Assembly (NCBI RefSeq): GCF_011299615.1
Contig: NZ_CP049861.1
Span: 930,001-994,000 of the forward strand
DNA: 64,000 bases
Origin: Erysipelothrix sp. HDW6C
Lineage (GTDB): Bacteria; Bacillota_I; Bacilli_A; Erysipelotrichales; Erysipelotrichaceae
Direction: 5' to 3'
The notes under the pieces were generated by a model that saw only the letters and a program-made list of their open reading frames with translations, was not told the DNA's origin and searched no databases. The position numbers and the translations under genes were made by a program. Numbering within the stretch: the stretch's first letter is position 1; every line of letters begins with the position of its first letter. Shown in pieces: positions 9,156 through 23,409 of the stretch.

Positions 9156-11912
9156 ATGTCAAGAAAAAAAATGCGTCGCATTAACGCAAAAAATAGTGCA
9201 ATAATAACTGATATTAACGCAAGATTAACTTTTGCAGCAACATCAGACGAAGAAACAATATTTAAGAAATTTAACACTCGTAATGAAGGATTATCAAATC
9301 GTGTAATTGAAAGAAATCGCACCAAGTATGGTGATAATGTAATTTCTAAGCAAAAACCAAAATCTCTTATTCAACGATTGTTCGGAGCGTTTATCAATCC
9401 ATTCACAATGATTCTCATTTTTCTCGCAATTGTATCAGGCATTACTGATATTTACATTCCAATGCGTTCGGGAGATGAAATTGATGTATTGACTGTAATC
9501 ATAATATTATCGATGGTTTTTATCTCAGGAATCCTTCGATTCTTACAAGAGACACGATCTGGAAACGCTGCTGAGAAACTGTTAGAAATGGTGACTACAA
9601 CAGCAACAATTCGTCGACAAGAAACTGGTGAAATAGAACTACCACTTGATGAAATCGTGGTTGGTGATATTGTTCGTCTTTCGGCTGGGGACATGCTACC
9701 GGCAGATGTGCGCATTACGAAAGCAAAGGACCTCTTTGTAAGTCAATCAGCGTTAACAGGAGAAAGCGAGCCATTTGAAAAATACAGTGAGCCTGAAAAA
9801 CAAGAAAAGAAATCGGCAACTGACTATTCAAATATGGGCTTTATGGGGAGTAATGTTATTAGTGGCACTGCAGAAGCCATCGTAATTTCAACTGGGGACG
9901 AAACGATGTTTGGATCCATGGCTCAGTCAATTTCAGAAGAACCAGTACAAACAAGTTTTGAAAAAGGTGTAAACTCAGTTTCTTGGGTACTTATTCGTTT
10001 CATGCTCATCATGGTTCCAATTGTATTCTTTATCAATGGATTTACAAAAGGAGACTGGATGGGTGCCTTCCTGTTTGGAATATCTATCGCTGTTGGACTA
10101 ACACCGGAGATGCTTCCAATGATTGTTACAACAAGCCTTGCAAAAGGTGCCGTGGCAATGTCGAAGGAAAAGACAATCATTAAGAATCTAAACTCTATAC
10201 AAAATTTGGGAGCGATCGATGTACTGTGTACTGATAAAACTGGAACCTTGACTGCAGATAAAGTTGTACTGCAATACCATTTAGATGTTAAGGGAAAAGA
10301 GAATGTTCAGGTGCTACGTCATGCATACCTAAACAGCTACTTCCAAACAGGACTTAAAAATTTGATGGATTTTGCCGTAATCAGCCGAACCGAACAAGAA
10401 AGTGAAAATGATGTTTCTTTGAACTATCTCAGCACCAACTATACGAAAGTTGATGAAATACCGTTTGATTTTGAACGACGTCGTATGAGTGTTGTTGTTC
10501 AAGATATGTCGGGTAAGGTGCAAATGATTACCAAAGGTGCCGTTGAAGAGATGCTATCAATTAGCAGTCACGTACAATACGGCAATACTATTGAACCTGT
10601 TACAGAGAAGGTGAAGCAAGACATTTTAAACACTGTTAACTCATTGAATGATGATGGAATGCGTGTTATTGCCGTTGCGCAAAAAACCAATCCATCACCC
10701 GTTGGAGCATTTGGAGTCCAAGATGAAAATGAAATGGTCCTATTAGGGTACCTTGCGTTCCTTGACCCACCAAAACAATCTGCCGCTGTGGCAATTCAAG
10801 CACTTTTGGATCATGGCGTCACAACTAAGATTCTCACTGGAGATAACGAAAAAGTTACGCGTTGGGTCTGCAAGCAAGTTGGAATTGAAATTGATGGACT
10901 CCTGTTAGGGGAGAATATTGAAGGTTTGACTGATATAGAATTGGAACGTGAAGCAAAGCGTTGCAATGTCTTTGCGAAAGTATCTCCTTCTCAAAAAGCA
11001 AGAATCATTAAAGCGTTGAGAGATGGCGGTCATACTGTCGGATTTATGGGGGATGGCATCAATGATGCAGCTGCAATGAAATCATCCGATGTTAGTGTTT
11101 CGGTGGATACAGCAGTGGATATTGCTAAAGAATCAGCGGATATTATTCTCTTAGAAAAAGACCTTATGGTTCTTGAAAAAGGGATTATTGAAGGAAGAAA
11201 AACATATGCAAATATGATCAAGTACATAAAAATGACAGCAAGTTCAAACTTTGGAAATATGTTCTCTGTCCTTGCTGCCAGTGCATTTCTACCATTCTTA
11301 CCAATGATGAGTGTCCACTTGATATTCCTAAACCTGATCTATGATATTTCCTGTACAGCGATTCCTTGGGATAATGTCGACGAAGAGTTTCTCATGGTTC
11401 CCAAGAAATGGGATCCAACCTCTGTTGGTAATTTCATGATTTGGATTGGTCCCACAAGTTCAGTCTTTGATTGGACAACGTATCTGTTGATGTATTTTAT
11501 AATTTGTCCGCAATTTGTTTCAGGGGGAGTGCTTTACAATAATATTGCGGTTAATGCCCTGGTTCAAAGTGGCCCATTGGCGGGGATGAATATGAGATTA
11601 GCCTATATGGCGATGTTCCATGCTGGTTGGTTTGTAGAGTCGATGTGGTCCCAAACTTTGGTCATTCACATGATTCGTACACCCAAGATTCCATTCATTC
11701 AAAGCCGTGCCTCAACACCATTGACTTTGATGACTTTTGCAGGAATTATTGCATTAACCATCATTCCATTTACTGGTTTTGGTCGCATGCTCGGATTCGT
11801 TGCATTGCCTGGGGTATACTTCGCATATCTCGCGTTAACAATTCTAGGGTACATGATTTTAGTAACCATTCTAAAGAAATTCTACATCCGTAGATATGGT
11901 GAATTGCTCTAA
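9156..11912 (+). CDS. mgtA: Mg2+-importing P-type ATPase, MgtA family
   Basis: 918 residues. Start ATG 9156 is preferred because an upstream in-frame ATG (9141) overlaps the GGAGG ribosome binding site itself. Type IIIB P-ATPase landmarks: SALTGES (actuator, TGES at 201-204), TDKTGTLT with phosphorylated Asp360, [10 protein letters not shown], and the hinge [20 protein letters not shown] followed by [19 protein letters not shown], which is characteristic of the Mg2+ branch. The enzyme uses ATP to bring Mg2+ into the cell against need when Mg2+ is scarce. The M-box riboswitch upstream supports the substrate. Length is normal for the family (about 900). Confidence 0.95.
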
Positions 11913-16561: not shown

Positions 16562-16771
16562 GAATTTTAGTTTGTTATAGTCCCCAAAAACGTTAGTTGA
16601 ATCTAAATTCTGTACAGTATACATGATAAGTGATTGCGCTTTGATTCGTAGGTGTTTCAAACAAATTTCACACTGTATAAAAACCAACAATGAAAAATCA
16701 GTGCTGTGTCGGTAGGATTCAATAGTGCTGGCATTTGAGAAACGATAAAAATCAGATAGCTGAACCATCAT
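16541..16771 (-). CDS. Small ORF between riboswitch and terminator
   Basis: 76 codons. The start has a near-ideal site (AAGGAGAT five bases before ATG), which is the main reason to take it seriously. The product has no recognisable domain; it contains one CxxC pair (CEICLK) and a phenylalanine/tyrosine-rich N-terminus. It is the first ORF after the purine riboswitch and ends inside the terminator hairpin ahead of ade. It may be a regulatory leader ORF rather than a functional protein. Confidence 0.35.
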   Translation of the reverse strand: MMVQLSDFYRFSNASTIESYRHSTDFSLLVFIQCEICLKHLRIKAQSLIMYTVQNLDSTNVFGDYNKLKFIQLFIA

Positions 16772-16813
16772 CAGTATCTCCTTATTCTAATTCCGATATC
16801 TCAAACGTAGAAA

Positions 16814-16877
16814 CGTCATAGTACTTAATTTACGGTTAAGTGTAGAGACTGCCCACCAATTTGGACATTATATAACG
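16814..16877 (-). promoter_or_regulatory. Purine riboswitch aptamer, guanine/hypoxanthine class
   Basis: On the minus strand: P1 CGTTATA / TATGACG (7 bp, one wobble), J1/2 TATAAT, a short P2 (GTCCA / TGGGC), J2/3 with GTCTCTAC, P3 ACTTAA / TTAAGT closing the canonical seven-base loop CCGTAAA, then J3/1 TACTATG. The base equivalent to position 74 is C (ACTATG), which specifies guanine/hypoxanthine rather than adenine. It lies upstream of adenine deaminase, whose product is hypoxanthine, so it probably gives product feedback on the salvage operon. Confidence 0.85.
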
Positions 16878-17039
16878 GAATAAGGACAGTATACCATATC
16901 TCATGTGAAAGACAATAATAATTCATCCCAAAAGAATGAAATAAAAGTTGGGTTCAGTGATTGTGATAAAGCGGTTTATTATGAACTATCACCAACAGGC
17001 GATTGCTTATCATTCGCTAAAATGTTATATTATCTTCAT

Positions 17040-17115
17040 GGGGTTTTAGCTCAGTTGGTAGAGCGCTTCGCTGGCAGTGAAGAGGTCAGCGGTTCGAACC
17101 CGCTAAGCTCCACCA
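17040..17115 (+). tRNA. tRNA-Ala (anticodon GGC)
   Basis: Complete cloverleaf with encoded CCA. Acceptor GGGGTTT pairs with AAGCTCC and includes the G3:U70 pair that identifies tRNA-Ala; D arm GCTCAGTTGGTAGAGC; anticodon arm TTCGC-TGGCAGT-GAAG with GGC; T arm with GGTTCGAACCC; discriminator A. Confidence 0.95.
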
Positions 17116-17128
17116 TTAGAGAAACTGT

Positions 17129-17148
17129 ACCCGCTTGATGCGGGTTTT
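17129..17148 (+). terminator. Terminator after tRNA-Ala
   Basis: ACCCGC TTGAT GCGGGT followed by TTTT, 14 bases after the tRNA. Confidence 0.75.
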
Positions 17149-17185
17149 ATGCTTTTATGGAAAATATAAGAAAATGGGTGGGCAA

Positions 17186-18172
17186 ATGAGTATTGATAAA
17201 TTAGTAAAAAAGATTACAAATAATAAGCAACATATTGAACTTACGATTCTAGAGAGTGACGCAGAGAACTGGAAGCAAGCGTGTTATGGAATGAATGGTG
17301 TTGCGCGCAAACCATCAGGACTTCGCTATGAGATTGGTTCATTAACCAAAATTTTCACAGCAACACTGGTTGCTAAACTTTTAGATAAAGGCGTTCTAAA
17401 TCTTACCGAGGTTCAGAGCCTGGTAGACAATGGCGAGTATGTAAATATACCAAGCATTCAAAGGCTTGCGACGCATACTTCAGGATTTACATATCAACCT
17501 CTTACGCGAATTCAAAATTTAGCAATGTTTGCCAGTGTTCTCACGGGTGGTAAAGCATGTGTGGATAATCCGTTTGTAGGGAAATCAAGTAAGACACAGA
17601 TATTGGATTCTGTCAGGACAATTAAGAATTATAATGAGGTTCATCCATTCTATTATTCAAACATTAACTATGCACTGTTGGCATTGCTATGCGAACAGGC
17701 AGTTGGGACACCTTATGTTGAACAGATGATGTCATTAATTGAATCAGATCTTGAACTCACAGATACAAACTTTAAATTTGAAAACGTAATGCTTGGAAAT
17801 GCGGGAAAGCATCGACAAGGGAATTGGTGTTGGAATGTCGAGGAAAGTATGATTGCATCAGGCGGTTTATACTCTACAGCTGCTGATTTACGTAAGTTTC
17901 TTACATTCCATTTTAATGAGAGTCATGATCATCCGTTCGTGGATATCATGAAAATAAAACATGCAACTGGACCGAAAGCCTATGATATGGGTCTTGCTTG
18001 GAAACTGCAAGACGAAGATATTCTATGGCATAATGGAGGAACAGGATGTTTTAACCTCTTTATTGGTATGAATCAGAATACAGGCAAGAAGGCTGTTGTG
18101 CTTTCAAACTATAGATCGTTAAATATAGATAAACTAGGATTAACACTTTTACGAAACGATTCACTTAAGTAG
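17186..18172 (+). CDS. Serine hydrolase of the beta-lactamase/AmpC-like superfamily (PF00144)
   Basis: 328 residues from ATG 17186 (GGGTGGGC upstream). An earlier in-frame start at 17135 lies in the tRNA terminator. The active site motifs of class C-like serine hydrolases are present: SLTK (nucleophile Ser and general base Lys), YSN (YxN motif in FYYSNINYALLAL) and HNGG (the KTG-equivalent box). No signal peptide or lipobox is visible, so it is predicted to be cytoplasmic and is more likely an esterase or peptidase-like hydrolase than a resistance beta-lactamase. Monocistronic with its own terminator. Confidence 0.85.
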   Translation: MSIDKLVKKITNNKQHIELTILESDAENWKQACYGMNGVARKPSGLRYEIGSLTKIFTATLVAKLLDKGVLNLTEVQSLVDNGEYVNIPSIQRLATHTSGFTYQPLTRIQNLAMFASVLTGGKACVDNPFVGKSSKTQILDSVRTIKNYNEVHPFYYSNINYALLALLCEQAVGTPYVEQMMSLIESDLELTDTNFKFENVMLGNAGKHRQGNWCWNVEESMIASGGLYSTAADLRKFLTFHFNESHDHPFVDIMKIKHATGPKAYDMGLAWKLQDEDILWHNGGTGCFNLFIGMNQNTGKKAVVLSNYRSLNIDKLGLTLLRNDSLK

Positions 18173-18194
18173 AATCCGCCTCTATGATTAATTT

Positions 18195-18219
18195 ACTCAT
18201 TCAAAGAATGAGTTTTTTT
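18195..18219 (+). terminator. Terminator after the serine hydrolase
   Basis: ACTCATTC AA/A GAATGAGT stem with a run of seven T. The rest of 18173-18384 is an AT-rich leader containing a possible GCTTCA...TGAAGC pairing ahead of the peptide gene. Confidence 0.8.
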
Positions 18220-18384
18220 ATGTTACCACCGGAGCGAATCAAATGACCACTGATACATAAACCATTCATTTGTAGATTAATCTATGATATATTTTTTGAA
18301 ATCGTAGGAATGGTAGCTTCAACTTCTTAGTTTAAGGTAGGTGAAGCGATTGTATCACTTAGATTCAAAGAGAGGAGGATACGC

Positions 18385-18549
18385 ATGAAAGGATTCTATA
18401 TTCCAATTGGCAACCAAACGAAATTAGATGATGCGACGGTTATGGCAAGCTACACTGTTGCCTGGGCAGGCGGTGTATTTATCATTATTGATAAGATTAC
18501 AGCTACTGATGCAGTACTTGAGTCAAAACCAATGTTATCATTCGCATAA
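18385..18549 (+). CDS. 54-residue peptide, putative precursor of an exported/modified peptide
   Basis: Starts MKGFYIPIGNQTKLDDATVM and ends ESKPMLSFA. An excellent ribosome binding site (GAGAGGAGGAT) precedes the ATG. The middle (residues about 17-35) is hydrophobic, with SYTVAWAGGVFIII; there is no cysteine, so lanthionine, sactipeptide or disulphide chemistry is excluded. A Gly-Gly pair (29-30) is present but the residues before it do not fit a classical double-glycine leader, and the exporter in the cluster has no C39 peptidase. The gene is followed by an attenuator-like hairpin and then three unknown genes and an ABC exporter, the layout of a peptide biosynthesis cluster. Role inferred. 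Confidence 0.55.
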   Translation: MKGFYIPIGNQTKLDDATVMASYTVAWAGGVFIIIDKITATDAVLESKPMLSFA

Positions 18550-18591
18550 TTTTGTACGGTTAATCTAACGTGTCTTATGAGTTGTCTTTGA

Positions 18592-18628
18592 TTGAAGTGG
18601 TGGTGAACTACTGCTGCTTCAATTCTTG
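18592..18628 (+). terminator. Leaky terminator/attenuator between peptide gene and biosynthetic genes
   Basis: TTGAAG / CTTCAA plus a wobble-rich inner stem (TGGTGGT with ACTGCTG) gives a 13-bp hairpin with a 5-base loop, followed by a T-rich but interrupted tail (TTCTTGCATTCTTT). Such a site would keep precursor transcripts in excess over downstream enzyme transcripts. Confidence 0.6.
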
Positions 18629-18659
18629 CATTCTTTAGTTTGATGGAAAAGAGGATCCC

Positions 18660-19556
18660 ATGAATACAATTGAAATTGCTAGAAGAATAAACAAACTGTC
18701 TTTAGATTGGATTATCAAGAATCTTGCAGACTTTTCACTTGAATCGCAATATTTTTCTCAAGAAAAAGACAGTCAACTCAAGATGGTAGCGGAGCTGTGT
18801 TTCGTAATGTTACCTGCACTCAATTCAAACGTTAATAATGGGCAAACTGGGCCGATTCTCAATCAAATTCAAAAAACGATTACTACTATAAACTTTCAAA
18901 GTATTTTTGAGGAGAATATTAATCGAATCGCGACAATTGGAATTATAAATGTGTTTGCTTATAAATTACGAGACAAGCACATTATTGATATGGATTTTGT
19001 ACGAAATCATGACTTAGTACAGAAACTGGATAACCTTCCGTTTCGAAAGATGGATTTAAAATTCATACTAGAACTGTCTGATGTTGAAGTGGCATTAGGT
19101 TATTATGATTTGTATATGGAAACAACGTTGGGGAATATGCAACCGCCGCACACGTTGACATTTATGGATATGTATAGTGTCACACATACAGTGTTTTACA
19201 TTACGAAACTAAGTAGAGGAATTAAAGAGAAAAGAATCCTTCCGCAACAAGAGAAAATTCATCGCTACTTAATGGTTCTCTTAATTATGTGTCGCAAGGA
19301 AAAGAATTTTGATCTGTTATTTGAGATTATCTATGCAATTACACTTGTTGATTATCAAATGGACGCGATGGATAGGTTAAGTATTCAAGAAAGTTTGAAG
19401 TACAGTTATGAACGCGTGCAGAAAATCGGGTACTTTGAATCCTATGAAGGGATGAACAAATATGTTGATACTCAGGTTAAAGCGTTCGAATTAACCTACC
19501 ACACAGTATTGGTTGCATTTGGGATGAGTCAGGAACTGTTGAGGGTTGAATTATGA
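18660..19556 (+). CDS. Unknown protein with DUF6895-like toroid motifs (peptide cluster)
   Basis: 298 residues, mostly alpha helical. ATG 18660 follows AAAAGAGGA. Two motifs are striking: MYSVTHTVFYITKLSRG (residues about 178-194) and ELTYHTVLVAFGMS near the C-terminus. A TH-x-x-FY...R followed by YHTxLVA pair is what I recall from DUF6895 proteins, which are predicted alpha/alpha toroids related in fold to terpene cyclase and lanthionine cyclase domains; this is from memory and not searched. The next gene overlaps it by four bases. It could modify the peptide, bind it, or provide immunity. Confidence 0.5.
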   Translation: MNTIEIARRINKLSLDWIIKNLADFSLESQYFSQEKDSQLKMVAELCFVMLPALNSNVNNGQTGPILNQIQKTITTINFQSIFEENINRIATIGIINVFAYKLRDKHIIDMDFVRNHDLVQKLDNLPFRKMDLKFILELSDVEVALGYYDLYMETTLGNMQPPHTLTFMDMYSVTHTVFYITKLSRGIKEKRILPQQEKIHRYLMVLLIMCRKEKNFDLLFEIIYAITLVDYQMDAMDRLSIQESLKYSYERVQKIGYFESYEGMNKYVDTQVKAFELTYHTVLVAFGMSQELLRVEL

Positions 19557-20275
19557 TGCAGCATGACAAACTTATTGAATCAATACTCAAAGAGCCTATT
19601 GAACTAGAATACTATCTAAAAACTCTAGGCAGATTAAGCGATTATCTTCTTATGATGGATATCACAAAGGAGTCAGATGACTTGTTCAATCCTTACTTTA
19701 GATTCTTAGATAGAGTTTCGTTGTCGGAAATAATACGGTGTAACCGACATTTGATCTATGAAGTTGCTTCAATTGTTCTCATTCTCAATCAAAATAATGA
19801 ACGATTCATAGATAGAGATATAGATGGGACTACAGAGATGTTCTACAATACATTCTCAGTGAATTGGGTAAACGGAATTGAGAAGACTCTAATCCGAAAA
19901 ATTCGACATAATTGGATCGTTACTGCATTTGAAATTACAGGTGTAGCGTTGGAAGAATACACTTACACATCATCCTTTTTCGAAAAATATCTCTACCAAG
20001 AATTTGTAAATATCGAGACTGAGCTAAAACTATCACGCTCGATTCTTGGAGAAGAAATATCCGATGAACCACTTCTAGAAATTGCTTCAACACAATTTCC
20101 AAGTGAGGTCGAAAAAAGGATCAATCAATTATTGCTGCTTGGATGTTTTACTGTTGATAGATGCATAAACATAATTGAGAGTTTGACCGATGATATGATT
20201 AAGTTGTTACCGCTTGAAAAACTGATTCTTGTTAATTTTATGATCAAGAAAGTGAGGTCTCTTCATAATGAGTAA
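19553..20275 (+). CDS. Unknown helical protein (peptide cluster)
   Basis: 240 residues; its ATG overlaps the upstream stop in an ATGA junction, and a second ATG follows directly. The product is rich in leucine, isoleucine and acidic residues and predicted helical throughout (for example LEYYLKTLGRLSDYLLMMD and SEIIRCNRHLIYEVASIVLIL), with no transmembrane segment long enough to be sure of. No catalytic motif is visible. Its place between two toroid-like genes and coupled translation argue that the products work together, possibly as a complex. Confidence 0.45.
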   Translation: MMQHDKLIESILKEPIELEYYLKTLGRLSDYLLMMDITKESDDLFNPYFRFLDRVSLSEIIRCNRHLIYEVASIVLILNQNNERFIDRDIDGTTEMFYNTFSVNWVNGIEKTLIRKIRHNWIVTAFEITGVALEEYTYTSSFFEKYLYQEFVNIETELKLSRSILGEEISDEPLLEIASTQFPSEVEKRINQLLLLGCFTVDRCINIIESLTDDMIKLLPLEKLILVNFMIKKVRSLHNE

Positions 20276-20882
20276 CCGGTTTAAGGATGATCAAAAAAAA
20301 GAGCAAATAACGACAGATTTCGACGGTTTTGAGAGTGCTAATAACGCGAAACTCAATGTATTCCTGCACTTAGCCCATCATTTAAAGAATCGAGAGGGCA
20401 GTCAACATTGTAAGAGTGAACAAAGTGAATTGAGACTTGAAGATAGAGAAGCATTACTTTGTAAGTTTCTGACGTACGATGCTGAGACTTATTTTGAAAT
20501 GATTGTTGAATTAATAAAGTCTGACACACCTTGCACAAATCATCAAAATCAGCCACTGATGAATCTAATTGAAGGACTGCTGCATTGCTTTATGCAAGCA
20601 TACGATATCGAGTCTTTTTCAATCACACTTTTATTAGCAATGTACTTAAATCCTAAGGCAGAATGTATAAAAGAATCCATGCAGTTTATTCACTACCAAA
20701 AACGCGAAGAAGGCTTATTTGGCTACTTGAATCCATTGAATAGGGACTATCATAGTATAGATACGTATCACAACTTTATCGAACCAACATCTGCATATTT
20801 TTTAACATTATTAAAATTGAACCAAAGTTTCTTAAGAAATACCAACGAAGTGTGCAAAAGGAGAAGCCATGACAATCGTTAA
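20268..20882 (+). CDS. Unknown protein with toroid-like repeat motif (peptide cluster)
   Basis: 204 residues. It starts eight bases before the upstream stop and ends fourteen bases into the ABC transporter gene. The C-terminal half contains QKREEGLFGYLNPLNRDYHSI followed by a PTSAYFLTLLKL helix; QxxxGxFGYLNP is reminiscent of the Q-x-x-D-G-x-F-G turns that close alpha/alpha barrels in cyclase-like proteins and of partners of DUF6895 proteins. Its N-terminus is polar and charged. Function unknown; a partner of the 18660 gene product is the most economical reading. Confidence 0.45.
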   Translation: MSNRFKDDQKKEQITTDFDGFESANNAKLNVFLHLAHHLKNREGSQHCKSEQSELRLEDREALLCKFLTYDAETYFEMIVELIKSDTPCTNHQNQPLMNLIEGLLHCFMQAYDIESFSITLLLAMYLNPKAECIKESMQFIHYQKREEGLFGYLNPLNRDYHSIDTYHNFIEPTSAYFLTLLKLNQSFLRNTNEVCKRRSHDNR

Positions 20883-22449
20883 GTACGGGAAAAAGAAAAC
20901 ATTAATATTCTTGTTAGCATTAATAGCAATGAAGAATACGGGGAGCATCTTTATTGCTTACATCATCAATCAATTTATTGACGCTGCTGATACACGAAAT
21001 ATTGAGCTTTTTTTAAGATTTGCAGGCATAGGTATTATTGGGCTAGTACTGTATATGATAGTAGGGGTTGTAGTCGTTAAAATACAGAATAAATATATAA
21101 GGGATGTAAATTTAAAAATTAAGACTACTGTACTCGAACATACATTTGTGGACAGTGTTCAATCGGATGATGTCACGGACACATTATCCTTTATGATGAA
21201 TGATCTTAAACTTTTAGAAAAACAAGGGATTGAAGGGGAGCTAACGATTCTCGGTCTTGTGATTCAATTTGTATTGGCAGTAGTGGCTGCTTTATTTTAC
21301 GACTGGGCCACAGCGTTGGTATTCCTAGTTGGAGGGCTAATTCCTTCAATCGTATCGAAGAAAAGCGAACCGAGAATAATGAAAGCATCGGAAAAATGGA
21401 CTCAGTCAAACAGTGAATATACTAACTATTTAGAGAATACTTTGAATGGCATTCAAACAATAAAAACATATAAGGTTGGTGATGCATTTATAAATCTTAT
21501 TGAGCAACGAATGCGTCAATCAGAGTTAAGTTTAGAGGTAATGAATGGCGTTGTTGGTGTTGTCCAAACAGTCATTACAACAATTGCATATATTTTTGGT
21601 ATTGTACTCCCTTTCGGATTTGGAGTGTATCGTGTTATTCATGGCAATCTAACATTGGGAGGATTCATGGCGGTTGTGCAACTCAATAATTCAATTTTGA
21701 ATCCGTTAATCGGCGTTTTAAATCTGCGAAACAGTTTAAAGTCAACGACACATATCAGTACTAAAATTGCGGAGATGGTTAAGGAACCAATGTCGCGAAA
21801 GATCCATTCTAATGTCGATATGGTGAGCAGTCTTGAAGTAAAAGAGGTGAGCCTTAAAATAGACGATAAAACATTGTTTAGCGATATTTCTCTAGATATT
21901 CGACCAGGCGATAATGTGCTTATTATGGCACCTTCAGGAGTTGGGAAAACTTCTTTCTTAACTGCATTACTCGGTATGCGAACATTCACAAGTGGAGAGT
22001 ATATGATTAATAATAAGGACGCGCAGATGATTGATGGAGATACTTTGTTTGAATACTTTAGTTATGTTAATCAAGCACCTTATGTCTTTAATGAATCCCT
22101 TGAGTTTAATTTAACACTTGGCGAAAGTGTCTCTAAAGAAAGATTTGAAGCGACATTGAAAGCAACAGAGTTAGACACTCTAGTGCATGAGAAAGGATTA
22201 AGTTATGTAATTGAGAACAGTGGCACTAATTTATCGAAAGGACAAATACAGCGAATTGAAATAGCTCGAGCGTTGCTAAGTAACCGACCGATAATGCTCG
22301 CGGATGAAATGACTGCTGCACTCGACACGGAAACAGGGCAGCGCATACGAAAAATGTTACTGAAATCAGATGTGACTCTCATCGAAGTTGCACATCATAT
22401 TAGTGAAACTGAAAAAATGAGCTATGACCACGTTTTGAATTTATCATAA
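20869..22449 (+). CDS. ABC exporter (TMD-NBD fusion) of the peptide cluster
   Basis: 526 residues. Residues about 10-290 form the exporter-type membrane domain; the nucleotide-binding domain follows with Walker A APSGVGKTS, signature NLSKGQIQRIEIARAL and Walker B PIMLADEMTAALD. The signature is LSKGQ rather than LSGGQ, and the switch histidine is in VAHHIS. There is no N-terminal C39 peptidase domain, so any leader removal must be done elsewhere. AAGGAG precedes ATG 20869, which lies inside the previous gene. Homodimer expected. As the last gene of the cluster it is the likely exporter of, or immunity pump against, the 54-residue peptide. Confidence 0.8.
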   Translation: MTIVKYGKKKTLIFLLALIAMKNTGSIFIAYIINQFIDAADTRNIELFLRFAGIGIIGLVLYMIVGVVVVKIQNKYIRDVNLKIKTTVLEHTFVDSVQSDDVTDTLSFMMNDLKLLEKQGIEGELTILGLVIQFVLAVVAALFYDWATALVFLVGGLIPSIVSKKSEPRIMKASEKWTQSNSEYTNYLENTLNGIQTIKTYKVGDAFINLIEQRMRQSELSLEVMNGVVGVVQTVITTIAYIFGIVLPFGFGVYRVIHGNLTLGGFMAVVQLNNSILNPLIGVLNLRNSLKSTTHISTKIAEMVKEPMSRKIHSNVDMVSSLEVKEVSLKIDDKTLFSDISLDIRPGDNVLIMAPSGVGKTSFLTALLGMRTFTSGEYMINNKDAQMIDGDTLFEYFSYVNQAPYVFNESLEFNLTLGESVSKERFEATLKATELDTLVHEKGLSYVIENSGTNLSKGQIQRIEIARALLSNRPIMLADEMTAALDTETGQRIRKMLLKSDVTLIEVAHHISETEKMSYDHVLNLS

Positions 22450-22578: not shown

Positions 22579-23409
22579 ATGAAATTTTCAAGTATTTCAC
22601 CGTTAACATTTAAAATAGCAGTCCGTGGCCATATTATGAAACGCTCAATTAAGAATGCTTTTAGTGGGAACAAGATAGCCAAGAAAAAATCGGACACGGA
22701 TCTCCCATATCGAATCTACACACATAAATCGCTTATCATGCGTAAGCTCGGCAATACAAATCTAAAACTTCAAGAGAACAAAAAAGTTAACCTTGGAATT
22801 GCCGCACCTAAGATAACTGGAATCCTAATTCGACCCGGTGAAACATTCTCGTTTTGGAGTCTTGTTGGTCCGCAGACACTTCGAAATGGGTATCTTGAAG
22901 GTGTAACCATTGCCGGCAACAAAGTTACTCAAGGATTGGGTGGCGGTATGTGTCAGTTTACAAATCTCATTCATTGGATTATCTTACATACACCGCTGAC
23001 GATATCGGAGTATCACTCTCACGATCGTTTTGATTTGTTTCCTGATTATAAGCGACAAGTGCCTTTTGGTGTTGGTTCATCCATAATTTATAATTATTTG
23101 GACTATCGGTTCACAAATAACACAGAAGACACTTATCAACTTAATGTATGGACAGATGATACCTATCTGAATGGGGAACTGCTGTGTTCATCACAGTTAC
23201 CTATGAAGTATCATATCCGATGTGAAGATGAGTATTTTATTAAAGAAGATGACAATGTATTCCGCAGGAATAAGATATATAGAGTTTGCAATGACAAACT
23301 AACAGGTGTTGAACTGGAGAAGACGCTCATTAAAACGAATAATGCCCGTGTCATGTATGATTATGATTTGATTCCACAACCAGTTAGAAATAATCCGCAA
23401 GTTTCATAA
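22579..23409 (+). CDS. VanW family protein
   Basis: 276 residues with the VanW core: RPGETFSFWSLVGPQTLRNGYLEG ... GLGGGMCQFTNLIHWIILHTPL, then ERxSHxxxDLFPDYKRQVPFG, here HSHDRFDLFPDYKRQVPFG. VanW is an accessory protein of some vancomycin clusters with no settled function, and stand-alone copies are common in Bacillota without resistance genes, as here (no ligase or dehydrogenase nearby). No signal peptide is visible. Its last 26 bases overlap the convergent Crp/Fnr regulator gene. Start ATG 22579 follows AGGTAGGAG. Confidence 0.88.
   Translation: MKFSSISPLTFKIAVRGHIMKRSIKNAFSGNKIAKKKSDTDLPYRIYTHKSLIMRKLGNTNLKLQENKKVNLGIAAPKITGILIRPGETFSFWSLVGPQTLRNGYLEGVTIAGNKVTQGLGGGMCQFTNLIHWIILHTPLTISEYHSHDRFDLFPDYKRQVPFGVGSSIIYNYLDYRFTNNTEDTYQLNVWTDDTYLNGELLCSSQLPMKYHIRCEDEYFIKEDDNVFRRNKIYRVCNDKLTGVELEKTLIKTNNARVMYDYDLIPQPVRNNPQVS

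Follow-up and report, generated by a model that had tools for sequence, protein, structure and literature searches.

A DUF6895 operon of Erysipelothrix sp. HDW6C as a candidate non-lasso pathway to an epimerised ribosomal peptide

Introduction

What does a bacterium make with a small cysteine-free peptide, three coupled genes of no evident family and an ABC exporter? This question is raised by positions 18385-22449 of a 64,000-nucleotide stretch, here called the window, of the 2.36 Mb genome of Erysipelothrix sp. HDW6C. A reading of the sequence alone had proposed a bacteriocin, a signal or a ribosomally synthesized and post-translationally modified peptide (RiPP) of a type that could not be matched to a known class. 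To our knowledge, few enzymes that do not use radical chemistry give rise to D-residues in ribosomal peptides. D-amino acids occur in linear, hydrophobic RiPPs such as the linaridins, which have a two-protein epimerase, and the YydF/EpeX epipeptides, which pair a small precursor with an ABC exporter. Recently, an epimerase of lasso peptides was reported from the DUF6895 family (Shi et al. 2026 ACS Catal). One of the window's genes belongs to this family, in a setting that is not that of a lasso peptide.

Results and Discussion

A peptide gene precedes four overlapping genes

The locus consists of a 54-residue ORF, a hairpin and four overlapping genes, the last of which encodes the exporter (Table 1). 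The DUF6895 gene and gene B overlap by ATGA (4 bases), B and C by 8 bases, and C and the exporter gene by 14, confirming that the four genes overlap. Searches with Pfam and NCBIfam models likewise upheld the statement that the usual RiPP enzymes are absent, as no LanM, LanB, LanC, radical SAM, YcaO or lasso gene was found in the cluster. A terminator-like hairpin behind the upstream S12 hydrolase gene indicates that the peptide operon is a transcription unit apart from it. The hairpin inside the operon had been called an attenuator. A stable structure does exist (-16.7 kcal/mol against shuffled sequences at the z-score in Table 1), but because it has no T-run and no counterpart was seen in the two relatives that were folded (L022 and L038), attenuation is unproven and only one reading; the hairpin may serve in processing, attenuation or stabilisation.

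Table 1. Features of the window in and around the peptide operon
Feature	Position	Strand	Evidence
tRNA-Ala (GGC), left edge of lineage-specific stretch	17040..17115	+	ARAGORN
S12 (PF00144) serine hydrolase, predicted cytoplasmic	17186..18172	+	Pfam E 1.8e-24
Terminator-like hairpin with T-run, 3' of S12 gene	18195..18220	+	Sequence
Precursor peptide of 54 residues, with its core predicted around SYTVAWAGGVFIII	18385..18549	+	ORF, precursor families, PSSM/HMM ranking
16-bp hairpin between precursor and enzyme genes, no T-run	18590..18624	+	Folding, z -5.4
DUF6895 protein of 298 residues, proposed to epimerise a peptide without SAM	18660..19556	+	PF21836 E 4.6e-60
Protein B, 240 aa, without known family	19553..20275	+	Pfam/NCBIfam negative; same place in L022, L038, L041, L046
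Protein C of 204 residues (YQKREEGLFGYLNPL), paralogue divergent from DUF6895, putative partner subunit	20268..20882	+	hhalign; adjacency
ABC exporter, TMD+NBD, no C39 peptidase	20869..22449	+	Pfam

Two congeners share the flank to the left of the cluster (the adenine deaminase gene together with 16734-16917) before the sequences diverge, and the matching stretches of these congeners (L064/L065) have no tRNA at the place of the window's tRNA-Ala. The S12 protein has a best match of only 5.6e-7 among 12 congeners, and GC content falls from 0.37-0.42 upstream to 0.34-0.37 within the cluster. The VanW gene at 22579-23409 was rejected as a cluster member because 69%-identical homologues occur in congeners that lack the cluster. 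The flank divergence, the remote S12 matches, the VanW homologues and the GC shift together mark the stretch from the tRNA-Ala at 17040 to 22449 as lineage-specific, and it was probably acquired.

The first of the four genes encodes a DUF6895 protein

The product of the first overlapping gene scores 203.9 bits against PF21836 (DUF6895; cut-off 23.8) over residues 13-290, which places it in the family. Calling three of the coupled genes unknown was therefore too strong, as one belongs to PF21836 and another, protein C, is a PF21836 paralogue. Alignments of 40 and 32 DUF6895 proteins share seven invariant residues, in window numbering Y172, T175, H176, D218, E222, G257 and H281. T175-H176 lie within THTVFY and H281 within YHTVLVA, two motifs that had been described as toroid-like. 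The predicted structure, modelled with loci from outside the plasmid collection, is all-helical and appears barrel-like (pLDDT 84.7, pTM 0.88). Sequence searches of the PDB with the protein returned nothing credible, and a Foldseek search of the PDB with the model gave no match at E < 0.001; the best hits were α/α barrels with TM up to 0.55, with haptocorrin and a glucuronate dehydratase at that value. The toroid-like description is thus supported for this protein at the level of fold class, through a confident all-α model and weak PDB matches, and for protein C only by its profile similarity to DUF6895.

We slightly favor, at a little better than even confidence, a RiPP other than a lasso peptide: DUF6895 together with C would epimerise its core, with B as an accessory protein, and the product would then be exported. 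The N-terminal part of the precursor would be bound by a DUF6895-C complex, possibly assisted by B. DUF6895 would then turn one or more L-residues of the SYTVAWAGGVFIII core into D-residues through acid/base catalysis that needs no cofactor, using the invariant His, Asp and Glu residues of its putative helical barrel. The operon has no obvious protease to cut off the leader; this step may fall to the S12 hydrolase encoded upstream, which is predicted to be cytoplasmic. The ABC protein would carry the product, a putative bacteriocin or signal, out of the cell. The epimerase role proposed here draws on family membership and on one reported member.

The resemblance to known epimerases is partial. 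No protein of the window matches a linaridin or radical SAM family, which sets the cluster apart from the linaridin and epipeptide systems. The lasso-peptide epimerase MslH has a calcineurin-like fold, whereas the model of the window DUF6895 protein consists of helices only, and its sequence matches no such family. MslH is metal-dependent and acts on the lasso peptide MS-271 (PMC10406935); the trait we propose it to share with the window protein is that a ribosomal peptide is epimerised by acid/base chemistry without SAM. The system reported by Shi et al. and ours are alike in the name of the Pfam family and in having a ribosomal peptide as substrate. They differ in that the window genome lacks a lasso peptidase and an above-cut-off cyclase homologue, that the precursor is not lasso-like, and that the cluster contains paralogue C, protein B and an exporter. 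A genome-wide search found no lasso B2 peptidase (PF13471), and one for the asparagine synthase-like lasso cyclase (PF00733) found only a below-cut-off fragment match of 39 positions far from the cluster. The product is therefore not a lasso peptide, and that candidate was rejected. The earlier statement that it matches no known class was right in this sense, since no described RiPP class with the same gene set was found.

DUF6895 and C might instead catalyze macrocyclisation, dehydration, side-chain crosslinking or proteolysis, with the lasso epimerase as a specialised branch of the family. The window protein is only about 14-26% identical to other aligned members, α/α barrels host many chemistries (a glucuronate dehydratase is among the weak matches), and precursor cores vary strongly between branches. 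Set against this, none of those branches departs from the Y, T-H, D, E and H residues, suggesting one chemistry, and the sole characterised member known to us is called an epimerase. On balance we consider a different chemistry unlikely.

Protein C is a divergent paralogue that recurs with DUF6895

Profile comparison of C with DUF6895 by hhalign (probability 93.4, E 2.5e-7) identifies C as a divergent DUF6895 paralogue. In 35 of 47 loci a protein of the C family neighbors DUF6895 or, in 21 cases, is fused to it, and many of these 35 loci were left out when the C model was built. A scan with this model gave only one match away from DUF6895. The fusions and constant adjacency suggest that C and DUF6895 form a complex. 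On a Streptomyces plasmid (L006:5878-6582), an orphan C-type protein lies in a stretch with no detectable DUF6895 and is probably the remnant of a decayed module.

Protein B showed no detectable relation to the DUF6895 and C profiles and no known family in Pfam or NCBIfam, and its predicted structure has a pLDDT of 38. Proteins in the same position at four other loci are too divergent for any firm statement. The full order precursor-DUF6895-B-C is found in L022, B. siamensis (L038:7826-10568) and B. velezensis (L041:7404-10148). In the latter two, which would be convenient models for laboratory work, the cluster lies a few kb from LipL-/Pta-like genes; the B. velezensis precursor ORF is at L041:7404-7583.

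An S12 hydrolase gene lies just upstream

The serine hydrolase gene immediately 5' of the cluster had been overlooked. Its ORF was listed from a TTG at 17135; we prefer the ATG at 17186. The S12 family includes D-residue-directed members. The protein combines PF00144 with the SxxK/YxN-type motifs of PBP-type thioesterases (SLTK, YSN and HNGG), enzymes that link an L-residue at the N-terminus with a D-residue at the C-terminus of nonribosomal peptides (PMC11735501). The C-terminal lipocalin-like domain of these thioesterases (PMC11735501) is absent, as PF00144 covers residues 63-327 of 345 and leaves no room for it. The S12 protein may act in the pathway as a peptidase or cyclase directed at D-residues.

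The preferred reading can be extended by making the hydrolase integral, such that it recognizes a D-residue made by DUF6895 and releases the core or cyclises it head to tail. S12 genes also abut DUF6895 in four Actinomycetota loci (L008, L010, L011 and L029), the congeners have only remote matches to the window protein, and the joining of L- to D-termini by PBP-type thioesterases (PMC11735501) offers a chemical precedent. Yet a terminator separates the S12 gene from the operon, most DUF6895 loci lack such a gene, the lipocalin domain is missing and S12 genes are common. We regard this extension as doubtful.

The exporter carries no C39 peptidase

The 526-residue exporter contains only ABC_membrane and ABC_tran domains, in agreement with the claim that it lacks a C39 peptidase. 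A double-glycine/C39 bacteriocin was rejected on this ground. Among NCBIfam models the best match is the streptosactin exporter GggC (NF050039, E 1.3e-61). GggC also exports a small RiPP; however, the match scores 209 bits, below the model's cut-off of 750, and the window cluster has no sactisynthase. At 22230-22250 the ABC signature reads LSKGQ in place of LSGGQ. Most DUF6895 relatives have no neighboring exporter or protease. A TMD-NBD exporter of the window type adjoins DUF6895 only in Ruoffia (L049), and other ABC genes lie nearby in L003, L022, L038 and L041.

The Ruoffia locus bears on another explanation, in which the ABC protein exports an unmodified pheromone or bacteriocin and DUF6895, C and B serve as chaperones, as sensors or in immunity. 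There an HTH/TPR-type regulator stands beside the peptide, DUF6895 and exporter genes; peptide receptors are found among all-helical proteins that lack cofactor motifs, and the fold search gave weak Rgg2 matches. The strictly invariant polar residues of DUF6895 speak against such roles, as do the enzymatic activity reported for the family and loci that consist of the peptide and DUF6895-C alone, with neither exporter nor regulator. We think it improbable, somewhat more so than a different chemistry, that the peptide leaves the cell unmodified.

The 54-residue peptide resembles precursors of other lineages

The peptide, MKGFYIPIGNQTKLDDATVMASYTVAWAGGVFIIIDKITATDAVLESKPMLSFA, is free of cysteine and is preceded by an AGGAGG site (GAGAGGAGGATACGC-ATG), so that a small ORF with a strong ribosome binding site is borne out. 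Its predicted core, SYTVAWAGGVFIII, is hydrophobic and contains tryptophan. A PSSM made only from precursors of other lineages ranked the peptide first of 758 window ORFs, and when its residues were shuffled 100,000 times, 236 of the shuffled sequences reached its score. A full-length precursor HMM again ranked it first, but at E = 0.71; the similarity is therefore short and backed mainly by position.

Directly 5' of DUF6895, a precursor-like small ORF is present in 41 of the 46 loci outside the window, as called by eye and without a formal control; the same inspection found no confident precursor ORF in L009, L014, L035, L040 and L046. A small ORF thus recurs beside the modifying gene in unrelated genomes, as is characteristic of RiPP pathways. 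The sequence-only reading had made its proposal depend on conservation of the small ORF beside these genes in related genomes. That comparison was run, and the conservation seen elsewhere leaves a cluster of peptide, modifying proteins and exporter well supported. A chance ORF beside unrelated genes, for which only the non-significant full-length HMM match speaks, is very unlikely given the first rank of the core match, the ribosome binding site and the positional recurrence, and on these sequence grounds we judge the peptide to be more than that.

In 23 loci the precursor ends in an AW-type core (e.g. GYVLAWERYVLVV) that resembles the window's; examples are those of Streptomyces (GYVLAWERYVLVVA), Caldalkalibacillus (GGVLAWSGYVLVWK), B. 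siamensis and B. velezensis (GNSFAWSGWVLVVP) and Hymenobacter (DSVVAWSGYVVVTK). Other branches have differing C-termini (AAWELVTKDFVYKG, IGPWYAYH, NWKFICNRSHWCLVVPK and WLLILSAPLPRPKK), so the core is branch-specific. The nearest parallels to the window cluster are in B. velezensis, B. siamensis and Caldalkalibacillus.

The module is patchy among relatives and widespread beyond them

DUF6895 was absent from the 12 congeners searched, and among overlapping samples of 98, 395 (class) and 392 (phylum) genomes, only this genome was positive. No relatives were found in the viral_contigs and phages collections. Such patchiness is as expected of an accessory pathway. Used alone as a query against genome_contigs, the window protein found no close relatives. 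A tblastn search of plasmids recovered relatives from Pseudalkalibacillus, Streptomyces, Kitasatospora and Cupriavidus. While an alignment of 8 sequences was too diverse to scan with, a conserved-motif alignment seeded from the plasmid relatives detected 38 loci in genome_contigs. Altogether, DUF6895 loci span Bacillota, Actinomycetota, Cyanobacteria, Chloroflexota, Pseudomonadota, Bacteroidota and others.

We consider the wide spread of the precursor-DUF6895-C module the most interesting part of the finding. We tentatively suggest, with less confidence than we have in the window pathway itself, that it represents a widespread undescribed RiPP class in which a cofactor-free complex of two barrels inverts residues of a Trp/Tyr-containing hydrophobic core independently of any lasso fold, with an S12-coupled sub-branch for release or cyclisation. 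The epimerase family has recently been described; what is new here is the non-lasso, exporter-linked setting, and our literature search found no description of the module. If DUF6895 and C are such an enzyme, a three-gene module from soil, marine, phototrophic and host-associated bacteria, the easily handled Bacillus velezensis included, would be a source of D-residue peptides. It would also provide a simple genetic signature for mining, which would escape RiPP tools that look for known enzymes.

Several loci depart from the simple arrangement. Lederbergia (L012:7343-7859) has two near-identical tandem precursor ORFs 5' of DUF6895 and a shorter leader-like ORF after it (9508-9684). Two Streptomyces loci (L008:4037-7892 and L010:3782-7724) combine two DUF6895 paralogues with an extra unknown protein and an S12 hydrolase, and precursors of this branch end in LLLSPPxPRPKKG. 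In Dictyobacter (L019 and L021:6400-9840), two precursor-like ORFs precede DUF6895-C, and the loci adjoin GvpL/F-like and AAA ATPase genes reminiscent of a gas-vesicle cluster. A Rokubacteria MAG (L033:4953-5748) also has two precursor-like ORFs before DUF6895, with an N-terminal twin-arginine-like signal (RRxFMxKAA) and the core EAWIVLTxCGSN.
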